Shown: positions 12,877-15,441 of the stretch, in pieces | How the letters are laid out: each line of letters starts with the position of its first letter | Position numbering within the stretch: position 1 is the stretch's first letter | Source: Streptomyces capillispiralis | Lineage (GTDB): Bacteria; Actinomycetota; Actinomycetes; Streptomycetales; Streptomycetaceae | Reading direction: 5' to 3' | Assembly: GCF_007829875.1 (NCBI RefSeq) | Contig: NZ_VIWV01000001.1 | Coordinates: 3,318,501-3,382,500 of the forward strand | DNA length: 64,000 bases | The notes under the pieces: generated by a model | Seen by the model: only the letters and a program-made list of their open reading frames with translations | The model's database searches: none | What the model was told of the DNA's origin: nothing | Made by a program: the position numbers and the translations under genes

Positions 12877-13037
12877 CGGCCCGCCCGCTTAAGCACGCCT
12901 TAAGGCGCCCATAAGCGCCTCCGGGGCCGGTCCAAACCGTTGGTTGCCGCGTGAACCTTCCGTACGATCCCTCAGGATCGACCATGCTCGACCATCACGC
13001 TCGACCCAACCCCCCACAAACAGAGGTGTGTTCAGCC

Positions 13038-13946
13038 ATGGCTGCTCATCGCGCACGCCGGCGGTCGCTCGGCGGGCTCGCGTTCCTGGTCACCGCCGCC
13101 GTCACCGGCACGCTCGTCCTCACCGGCACCGGACCGGGCGCCCACCAAGCCGACGCCGCCACTCCCGTCACCGCCACCCCCACGGCCGTGACATGGTCCG
13201 ACGAGTTCGACGGCGCCGCCGGAACCGCTCCCGACCCGGGCAAGTGGACCCTGGAGACCGGCGGCACGGGCAACGGCAACAACGAGTTGCAGTACTACAC
13301 CAACAGCACGGACAACGCCGCCCTCGACGGCAACGGCAACCTCGTCATCACCGCCCGCAAGAACACCGACTCCGGTCTCCAGTGCTGGTACGGGCCGTGT
13401 CAGTACACCTCGGCCCGCCTCAACACCGCCGGCACCTTCACACAGGCGTACGGTCACTTCGAGGCCCGCATCAAGATCCCGCGCGGGCAGGGCATCTGGC
13501 CGGCGTTCTGGATGCTCGGTGACGACCTGGGCAGCGTCGGATGGCCCAACAGCGGTGAGATCGACATCATGGAGAACGTCGGCAACGAGCCGAACACCGT
13601 CCACGGCACCCTGCACGGCCCCGGCTACTCCGGCAGCGGCGGCATCGGCGCCCCGTACGGCTCCCCGGACGGACGGGCCTTCGCCGACGACTTCCACGTC
13701 TTCGCGGTCGACTGGAGCCCCGACAAGATCACCTGGTCCGTCGACGGCCGGACCTACCAGACCCGCACGCCCGCCGATCTGGGCGGCAACAAGTGGGTGT
13801 TCGACCACCCGTTCTTCCTGATCCTCAACCTCGCCGTCGGCGGCAACTGGCCCGGCAGCCCCGACAGCAGCACCCAGTTCCCGCAGACGATGACCATCGA
13901 CTACGTACGGGTGTCCGCGGCCGACAGCGCCGCCGCGAAGAGCTGA
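13038..13946 (+). CDS. Secreted GH16 endo-beta-1,3-glucanase (laminarinase type)
   Basis: Predicted to cleave beta-1,3-glucan such as fungal wall or laminarin. The 302-residue product starts at the ATG at 13038 (AGAGG 11 nt upstream). It has a signal peptide (ARRR, hydrophobic stretch, cleavage near ADA-A) and a single GH16 jelly-roll domain from TPTAVTWSDEF to DYVRVSAAD. The catalytic signature GEIDIMENVG carries the two glutamates and aspartate. The substrate-cleft motifs GIWPAFWMLG and NLAVGGNWPG are present. Bacterial enzymes with this arrangement are usually laminarinases; an exact substrate cannot be read from sequence. Confidence 0.92.
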   Translation: MAAHRARRRSLGGLAFLVTAAVTGTLVLTGTGPGAHQADAATPVTATPTAVTWSDEFDGAAGTAPDPGKWTLETGGTGNGNNELQYYTNSTDNAALDGNGNLVITARKNTDSGLQCWYGPCQYTSARLNTAGTFTQAYGHFEARIKIPRGQGIWPAFWMLGDDLGSVGWPNSGEIDIMENVGNEPNTVHGTLHGPGYSGSGGIGAPYGSPDGRAFADDFHVFAVDWSPDKITWSVDGRTYQTRTPADLGGNKWVFDHPFFLILNLAVGGNWPGSPDSSTQFPQTMTIDYVRVSAADSAAAKS

Positions 13947-14062: not shown

Positions 14063-14335
14063 TCACCGCGCTGGACCTGTGGCACGGTCCGCGGCGAAGA
14101 CCTCGGCAGTCGATGCGGCGGTGAGCGCCCGCTCGAACCAGAGCGTCAACACCTCGGGATCCCCGCAACCGACGATGCGCTCCCGGTCCGCCTCGGAGAC
14201 CTCAATACCCCGATGCCCCAGCAGGATCAGAAGGCCCCGCCCCTGCCCCTGAGCCTGACCTTCCGCCCGGCCCTCCGCCCGGCCCTCCGCCCGAAGCCTC
14301 TGAGCAGTCTCCGACTGGAACAGGGACAGGTCCAT
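14063..14335 (-). CDS. Stand-alone duplicate of Rpn C-terminal domain (RpnS-like)
   Basis: A 90-residue frame (MDLSLFQSETAQRLRAEG...) nearly identical to the C-terminal 96 residues of the upstream nuclease gene. It contains the four-residue repeats RAEG (three) and QAQG (one; the parent has two). Its ATG overlaps the parent stop (TGATG), so it would be translated by coupling. Work on E. coli Rpn proteins showed that a separately translated C-terminal fragment neutralises the full-length nuclease. This copy could be an extra antitoxin, or the remains of a partial tandem duplication. The frame is intact and the substitutions are modest. Confidence 0.65.
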   Translation of the reverse strand: MDLSLFQSETAQRLRAEGRAEGRAEGQAQGQGRGLLILLGHRGIEVSEADRERIVGCGDPEVLTLWFERALTAASTAEVFAADRATGPAR

Positions 14336-14625
14336 CACTCCGCGGGTCCTGTCTCCCCGCCCGCCGCGAACACCTCCGCCATCGACGTGGCCGTCAGCGC
14401 CCGCTCGAACCAGAGCGTCAACACCTCGGGATCCCCGCAACCGACGATGCGCTCCCGGTCCGCCTCGGAGACCTCAATACCCCGATGCCCCAGCAGGATC
14501 AGAAGGCCCCGCCCCTGCCCCTGAGCCTGCCCCTGAGCCTGACCTTCCGCCCGGCCCTCCGCCCGGCCCTCCGCCCGAAGCTTCTGAGCAGTCTCCGACT
14601 GGAAGAAAGAGAGGTCGACGGCCAT
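14335..14625 (-). CDS. Nested in-frame C-terminal product of the Rpn gene (RpnS-like antitoxin candidate)
   Basis: Inside the nuclease gene, codon 216 is an ATG preceded by GGAGG (14632-14636) with a 6-nt spacer, a stronger ribosome-binding site than most true starts in this window. Translation from it gives 96 residues covering exactly the repeat-bearing C-terminal domain. This matches the RpnL/RpnS gene-within-gene arrangement described in E. coli, including variable four-residue repeats in the dimerisation helix. Separate expression is inferred from the Shine-Dalgarno, not proven. Confidence 0.6.
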   Translation of the reverse strand: MAVDLSFFQSETAQKLRAEGRAEGRAEGQAQGQAQGQGRGLLILLGHRGIEVSEADRERIVGCGDPEVLTLWFERALTATSMAEVFAAGGETGPAE

Positions 14626-15270
14626 GAGATGCCTCCAGATGTCCGCGGCCGGCGTCTTGCCGAGGCCTTGTTCCATGAGCTCGATGAAGGTGCCTGCGGT
14701 GCTCTCGTCGTCGGCCGACAGGCCCTTGAGTGCCTTTGCCAGCGCGTTCAGTATGGCATCGGCGTCCGGGTCACGGCGGTGCAGAGCCGCCGACAGGACG
14801 GTGAGCGGGATGTCCCGGGCGGCCTCGGCGGGGCTGTCGATCACCGGTACGTCGTCGGGGCCCAGGACCAGCGGCCTCAGGGTGAGCGCAGGCCACTGCG
14901 GCGGCCCGATGTCGACCTGCCGGGCCGCCCACTCGGCCGTCCCCCGATCCGCGCACACGACGAGCAGTACCGGCGGGATGCGGTACTTGGCGTACACGTA
15001 CGACAGGTAGTACGCCCAGCTGGCGGGCTTGCGCCCGTCCGGCTCCCCCTGCGACTCGACCGCGAGGAGAAAGCTGCCGTCCTCGGTGTCCATCCGCAGC
15101 AGGGTGTCCACCCGGCGTTCCAGGGGCTGGGTCTCCGTGAGGTCGGTGGAGAGCTCGGTGCTGGAGATGGGGGGCGGAAAGGCGACGCCGAGGTTCCTGG
15201 CGGCGCGGGCGAAGAGGCCCGGGTCCTGCTGGAAGATCCGGTGCAGGGCCTCATGGGATGAGCTGACCAT
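14335..15270 (-). CDS. Rpn-family PD-(D/E)XK nuclease (recombination-promoting nuclease/transposase-like)
   Basis: A 311-residue member of the Rpn/YhgA group. The nuclease core is near residues 50-105: D55 in ERRVDTLLRM, then E72 and Q74 in LLAVESQGEPD, then a helix around YYLSYVYAKYR and strand VLLVVCA, as in PD-(D/E)XK folds. Residues 110-210 are helical. From M216 the C-terminus carries RAEG (three) and QAQG (two) four-residue repeats and a conserved ILLGHRGIEVSEADRERI block. In E. coli such proteins are DNases acting as toxins or antiphage factors, with a gene-internal antitoxin. Followed by an overlapping C-terminal duplicate. Confidence 0.75.
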   Translation of the reverse strand: MVSSSHEALHRIFQQDPGLFARAARNLGVAFPPPISSTELSTDLTETQPLERRVDTLLRMDTEDGSFLLAVESQGEPDGRKPASWAYYLSYVYAKYRIPPVLLVVCADRGTAEWAARQVDIGPPQWPALTLRPLVLGPDDVPVIDSPAEAARDIPLTVLSAALHRRDPDADAILNALAKALKGLSADDESTAGTFIELMEQGLGKTPAADIWRHLMAVDLSFFQSETAQKLRAEGRAEGRAEGQAQGQAQGQGRGLLILLGHRGIEVSEADRERIVGCGDPEVLTLWFERALTATSMAEVFAAGGETGPAE

Positions 15271-15405
15271 GAGGCCACGTTAGGGACGGAATGGCACGTG
15301 CCGCCCGCACTTGCCACCTCACTCACGCGATCGAGTGACACCCCTGCCCCTAAGACGACGCCCCACAGAGCAGAGCAAGCCCCGCAGGCACGGACAGGCA
15401 CAGCA

Positions 15406-15441
15406 AAGGGGCCCGTACGACCGAAGTCGTACGGGCCCCTT
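15406..15441 (-). terminator. tuf terminator
   Basis: Perfect 16-bp inverted repeat (arms 15406-15421 and 15426-15441) with a 4-nt loop, 57 nt downstream of the tuf stop. It closes the str operon and separates it from the Rpn gene. Confidence 0.85.

Follow-up and report, generated by a model that had tools for sequence, protein, structure and literature searches.

Given that a gene of Streptomyces capillispiralis resembles the Rpn nucleases of Escherichia coli and carries a Shine-Dalgarno (SD) sequence inside its coding region, we asked whether this locus encodes two proteins in a single reading frame, a full-length nuclease and its separately translated C-terminal domain. For E. coli Rpn, effects as a toxin, as an antitoxin and on phage are described in excerpts of Zhong et al. 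2023 (PMC10327210), where the small form is reported to inhibit. The original prediction, made for a window of 64,000 nucleotides (the whole stretch of DNA analysed), described a 311-residue Rpn-type nuclease in which an internal GGAGG and an in-frame ATG at 14625 would give rise to a 96-residue product. The features of the locus, in window positions, are as follows.

14335–15270, minus strand: full-length Rpn-like nuclease (RpnL-like), 311 aa, with an ATG start; from the ORF and its translation.
14656–15270, minus strand: PD-(D/E)XK-like nuclease domain, residues 1–205, with conserved D55, E72-x-Q74 and K81.
15277–15282, minus strand: TAACGT, a candidate −10 located at leaderless spacing from the start codon of the long gene, which has no SD.
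14750–14758, minus strand: TGCCATACT, candidate extended −10 of an internal promoter, codons 171–174; from codon conservation.
14632–14636, minus strand: putative internal SD, GGAGG, inside codons W212-R213; from the sequence and the homologue codons.
14335–14625, minus strand: predicted RpnS-like small protein nested in the long gene, 96 aa, beginning at the internal ATG; a start codon is present in 207 of 210 homologues.
14518–14577, minus strand: four-residue repeats, RAEG three times and QAQG twice, forming part of the long helix that opens the C-domain; from the sequence and the model.
14063–14335, minus strand: stand-alone C-domain copy, 90 aa, a near-copy of the nested domain.

For comparison, we assembled 226 homologous loci, a non-random set made up of the best-scoring places of four homologue searches and 140 further places, of which 80 came from the matches listed in the genus and 60 from the matches listed in the class; some partial and lower-scoring matches were left out. 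These loci yielded 219 full-length ORFs and, with ORFs identical over the last 600 nt counted as duplicates, 211 distinct aligned sequences. Codon 216 was aligned in 210 ORFs, and 210 loci had at least 600 nt of downstream sequence. The first codon counts were made on 130 distinct ORFs from 136 loci; the median pairwise identity in this set was 48%, so that the homologues are distant enough for synonymous sites to be free. The tree was a quick FastTree reconstruction, and the counts of changes drawn from it are accordingly rough.

As modelled, the N-terminal part of the long protein is a PD-(D/E)XK nuclease fold with its catalytic residues intact. All 211 homologues of the alignment kept D55 and K81, and E72 and Q74 were each kept in all but one. 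The AlphaFold model of the long protein (mean pLDDT 90.9) showed an N-part of mixed alpha/beta structure and a C-part made of a helix from residue 226 to 262 and, after it, two shorter helices. PD-(D/E)XK nucleases, namely EndoMS, SdaI, PaqCI, McrC and TnsA, predominated among the structural neighbours of the N-part, and the best of them aligned at Z 7.7 with 3.0 Å rmsd over 101 residues; this score lies below the caution level of 8 given by the tool, yet the neighbours are mutually consistent. The model and its neighbours bear out the PD-(D/E)XK part foreseen in the original prediction. A PDB sequence search with the family alignment A1 returned nothing relevant.

We then turned to the internal start. 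On the minus strand, GGAGG (14636–14632) is followed by the spacer CATCTC and by an ATG (14625–14623) that is codon 216 of the long gene, in frame, precisely as had been predicted together with the 96-residue product. In one gene, such a GGAGG and ATG could be chance, whereas the pattern across 210 homologues is not. Codon 216 was ATG in 149 of the 210 aligned actinobacterial homologues, GTG in 53, TTG in 5 and another codon in 3. All 53 valines at this position were encoded by GTG, which made up 1,055 of the 2,962 Val codons overall in the 130-gene set. Similarly, Arg213 was the rare codon AGG in 136 of 140 cases, against at most 12 of 43 at the other columns of the 130-gene set with at least 40 Arg residues. 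A start codon preceded by an SD run of at least 4 nt occurred at column 216 in 98% of the 210 homologues, compared with 33% at the next-best column (218) and 0.5% at the median column. On the quick FastTree phylogeny of the nuclease part, rough counts gave at least 17 changes at codon 216 and at least 9 at codon 213. Furthermore, mRNA folding in 105 genes was weaker than in synonymous shuffles by 1.23 kcal/mol at −15 (SE 0.28) and by 1.30 kcal/mol at 0 (SE 0.24), and also by 1.5 at −60.

The strongest evidence for the internal start, as read from the codons, is that the peptide passes from W-R to L-E with the signal unchanged. In the group of homologues with glutamate at position 213 (the E213 group, n = 61), codon 212 ended in G in all 61 members, although the residue was L, W, M, V or R; Glu213 was GAG in all 61, against 408 GAA among the 1,508 Glu codons of those genes; the first base of codon 214 was G in 52 of 61, the overall share being 42%; and a start codon stood at position 216 in all 61. 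The SD is rebuilt here as (N)NG-GAG-G, and this codon bias implies that GGAG(G) is kept 5–6 nt from the start by quite different amino acids. Collectively, the comparison shows selection at the nucleotide level for the internal start or its product, which supports the predicted internal translation start, and we infer that the small protein is translated from codon 216. The homologues do not speak against such a start, since only three of the 210 have no start codon at this position; one further homologue had no SD run of 4. The three, L151, L157 and L205, carry CAG, GAG and CTA at position 216, and the nested gene has possibly been lost there or its start shifted.

A second conserved nucleotide signal, which the original prediction did not mention, was found approximately 125 nt upstream of the internal start, at 14758–14750, where the family consensus TGNNATACT forms an extended −10-like element. 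Among the homologues with R or K at position 213 (the R/K213 group, n = 146), ATACT, covering codons 173–174, was present in 136 and the TG in 82. Ile173 was encoded by ATA in 137 of 140 members of this group, whereas only 13 of the 1,696 Ile codons at other positions of these genes were ATA, and the third base of codon 171 was T in 61% of the 130-gene set, against 9% expected. The ATACT element was absent from the E213 group. It is doubtful, in our assessment, that the ATA codon serves as a rare-codon translational brake instead of as part of a promoter. Such a brake would agree with the near absence of ATA from the rest of these genes, and with the observation that no −35 element was evident 17 bp from ATACT, the conserved A at codon 163 being 26 nt upstream and too far away; but it does not predict the T at the third base of codon 171 or the TG of an extended −10, and excerpts of Zhong et al. 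(PMC10327210) describe internal transcription starts in the E. coli rpn genes. The ATACT-containing element is probably an internal promoter for the small form, its promoter activity being predicted from codon conservation.

The long gene itself begins differently. Among the 166 homologues with usable sequence upstream of the long gene, 69 had TAnnnT at leaderless spacing and no SD, against 4.2 expected from shuffles, while 60 had an SD, 37 had neither signal and none had both. The window gene and 10 of the 12 EF-Tu-linked relatives among those listed were of the leaderless type, and translation of the long form in the clade of the window seems to be leaderless. A leaderless start as a rule for the whole family was rejected in view of the 60 homologues with an SD and the 37 with neither signal. 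Within the flanking sequence examined, EF-Tu lay upstream in 14 aligned loci. In the window, a strong perfect-stem hairpin at 15408–15439 stands between EF-Tu and the nuclease gene; it is likely a terminator separating the latter from the ribosomal operon.

The predicted C-domain, with its three RAEG and two QAQG units, is helical in the model and varies in repeat number among homologues. Modelled alone, it adopted a three-helix layout with moderate confidence (mean pLDDT 75.9). A Foldseek search with this model gave no useful match (best E 7.6); the structure of the E. coli small form RpnAS (PDB 7TH0) was not among the matches listed, which is no evidence against a shared fold. Repeat number differed between pairs of homologues mostly by multiples of four residues, and nested domains from different loci had equal repeats in 2 of 11 pairs at 90% identity or above and in 126 of 765 pairs at 60–89%. 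By this comparison, repeat number is turning over rapidly.

Although the original prediction was right about the nested domain, it missed a second, stand-alone C-domain gene immediately downstream (14063–14335). The ATG of this gene overlaps the stop codon of the long gene in TGATG (14337–14333), and its 90-aa product is 89% identical to the nested domain over the aligned part, with one QAQG unit fewer. With at least 600 nt of downstream sequence available, a same-strand C-domain copy was found downstream in 55 of 210 loci and upstream in one. Of the loci with a downstream copy, six had two or more copies and 11 had a copy beginning at the overlapping TGATG position. The best match of a stand-alone copy was its own upstream domain in 28 of the 55 cases and another locus in 27, and we rejected on this ground the idea that stand-alone copies always descend from their neighbour. 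In three loci (L112, L123 and L124), the stand-alone ORF contained two C-domains in one frame, possibly a covalent antitoxin dimer.

That the stand-alone copy is a decaying, functionless duplicate appears unlikely. The weak SD of the copy in the window, its repeat mismatch, and the at least 41 changes between presence and absence on the quick FastTree phylogeny (a rough count) would fit decay, but the ORF is intact, GGAGG precedes a start near the beginning of the domain in 14 of the 55 stand-alone copies, and the nested and stand-alone genes of the window differ at synonymous sites far more than at nonsynonymous ones (pS 0.20, pN 0.05, dN/dS 0.22), indicating that both copies are kept as proteins. 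The comparison thereby shows purifying selection on the stand-alone copy. As for the mismatch, 39 of the 55 nested/stand-alone pairs differed in length by a multiple of four residues, zero included, and only 3 of these 39 were equal. We considered an enforced repeat mismatch in tandem pairs and rejected it, as the control pairs of nested domains were also mostly unequal; unlinked relatives differ about as often as tandem pairs do, which points to fast turnover and not to a proven mismatch rule. In E. coli, one added repeat in RpnCS abolishes counteraction of RpnCLS, according to excerpts of Zhong et al. (PMC10327210). Under that rule, the stand-alone protein of the window, one repeat different, is predicted not to neutralise the adjacent long form, and its role may lie with a different partner or with an earlier repeat state.

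To place the family, we compared it with the E. coli Rpn proteins and with curated models. The window protein scored 11.4 bits (E 0.21) against TIGR01784, the model of the Rpn family, below the curated cut-off of 52.1, and for this reason we do not file the family as a member of Rpn; the 'Rpn-type nuclease' of the original prediction stands in its parallel with E. coli Rpn and is better called Rpn-like. The TIGR01784 alignment nevertheless kept register in the window protein, with 34–91 aligned to 32–89, and weak matches (E of 1 or less) were obtained in 12 of 35 family members, the best at 2e-4. Of the 60 genomes sampled from the phylum, one reached the cut-off of this model, and no match was listed in the genome of the window. 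One actinobacterial genome (G275; L231–L234; L140, L168) matched the curated Rpn model as well as the family of the window. Profile comparison by hhalign against four E. coli Rpn proteins aligned both parts of the family with modest probabilities, the N-part (alignment A1) at E 2.9e-4 over 98 columns (probability 40%) and the C-part at E 1.2e-4 (probability 54%). Neither the window protein nor the 90-aa copy had an accepted match in Pfam, NCBIfam or PADLOC (PADLOC library from 2023), in agreement with the claim that standard annotation misses the system. DUF4351 (PF14261), which excerpts of Zhong et al. (PMC10327210) give as the domain of RpnS proteins encoded by separate genes in certain species, was matched weakly by C-domains of alignment A3 (7 of 36, best E 9.2e-4) and gave no match in the 90-aa protein of the window.

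The parallels with E. coli Rpn extend to the whole layout. Both have a nuclease with the PD-(D/E)XK-type D...ExQ motif, D55 and E72-x-Q74 of the window corresponding by eye to D63 and E82-H-Q84 of E. coli RpnA; in both, the C-domain is encoded also from an SD-led internal start, the first helix of that domain carries variable four-residue repeats, and the gene for the small protein is sometimes repeated downstream. The rpnE/ypaA pair of E. coli K-12 has the same arrangement, with the SD and start copied and the downstream copy one four-residue unit longer. ypaA (L230:7817–8002) is annotated as a pseudogene, yet it has an intact frame and an ATG with the copied SD; its product was detected by tagging, as stated in excerpts of Zhong et al. 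(PMC10327210).

In contrast, several traits set the family apart from E. coli Rpn, besides its score below the curated cut-off. Its internal SD lies within W-R or L-E codons, whereas that of E. coli Rpn lies within K-E codons; its R/K213 group has the near-invariant ATACT element, unlike E. coli Rpn; and many of its long genes, again unlike E. coli Rpn, have no SD and a −10 at leaderless spacing. Toxicity and inhibition are known for E. coli Rpn only. Among the papers listed by searches of an open-access library, none dealt with Rpn toxin-antitoxins of Streptomyces. Judged by its layout and conservation, the locus is a divergent, unannotated, Rpn-like gene-within-gene branch of a kind already known from E. 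coli, and what appears new in the branch is the choice of other internal-start codons, the conserved internal promoter-like element and the partly leaderless-type start of the toxin.

Regarding function, the sequence comparisons, the models and the analogy make it fairly probable that the locus works like the E. coli Rpn toxin-antitoxin, in which a nuclease is restrained by a separately produced copy of its own C-domain. The full-length protein would be a PD-(D/E)XK nuclease whose C-terminal part is a dimerisation domain. This domain would also be made alone from the SD-led codon 216, probably from its own promoter about 125 nt upstream, and the free C-domain would use its repeat-bearing helix to bind the C-domain of the long form, leaving the nuclease inactive. 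Phage infection or another stress might then shift the balance between the two forms. In the clade of the window, a leaderless mRNA would serve for the long form and an SD-led start for the small form, and owing to this difference the two may react differently when initiation changes. It is by analogy with E. coli that toxicity, neutralisation and phage defence are attributed to the window locus.

The internal start may alternatively be real and the small protein an assembly subunit or a DNA-binding cofactor required by the nuclease, rather than an inhibitor. Nucleotide conservation indicates that a product is made and is silent on its function, the modelled C-domain is helical with a long helix that is probably oligomerising, and excerpts of Zhong et al. 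(PMC10327210) cite a precedent in Cas10d/Cas11d. We consider a cofactor improbable, because the layout, the repeats and the stand-alone duplicates match those of E. coli Rpn, whose small form is inhibitory according to those excerpts. Finally, it is very hard to credit that constraints on the protein maintain the W-R-x-L-M motif and that the SD-like sequence is its by-product: W212, found in 127 of 130 of the first group and encoded by TGG only, does force part of the SD, but the AGG and GTG bias, together with an SD re-formed from Leu-Glu codons, refutes this for most of the family, and synonymous recoding of the same peptides predicts SD runs of at least 5 nt before codon 216 in 49 of 210 homologues, not in the 192 observed.

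Extending the toxin-antitoxin reading, we tentatively entertain a broader scheme, which we rate as a speculative one with the odds against it. The family would be a large unrecognised actinobacterial branch of nested toxin-antitoxins, with a leaderless toxin and an antitoxin made from an internal promoter and a canonical SD; stresses or drugs that spare leaderless initiation would release the nuclease, and the stand-alone copies would act as guards against the nucleases of relatives or would preserve a stock of repeat states. If the locus works as a toxin-antitoxin, over half of the sampled genomes of the genus (at least 145 of 246 had a match to the window protein, partial matches included) would carry a nested toxin-antitoxin nuclease that the libraries tried do not call. 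The contrast between leaderless and SD-led starts, together with the repeat mismatch of the stand-alone copies, makes the question of toxin release directly testable, and the codon test used here, in which an SD and a start are kept through a change of amino acids, offers a simple comparative route to genes within genes.

Beyond the genus, a search with a 35-member profile found the family in at least 91 of 394 genomes of the class and at least 28 of 137 genera. No relatives were found among 50,697 phage records. The two plasmid records matched were 2.66 and 11.85 Mb in size and are hardly ordinary plasmids. On the plus strand at 12951–13946 lies a convergent ORF that, from its translation, looks like a secreted GH16-type glucanase. 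The genome of the window contained four matches in all: the long gene, the 90-aa copy, a full-length paralogue and a C-terminal fragment. The paralogue (L002, C1:3903230–3904126) is 60% identical, and the fragment (L004, C1:3500523–3500849) contains two stops.
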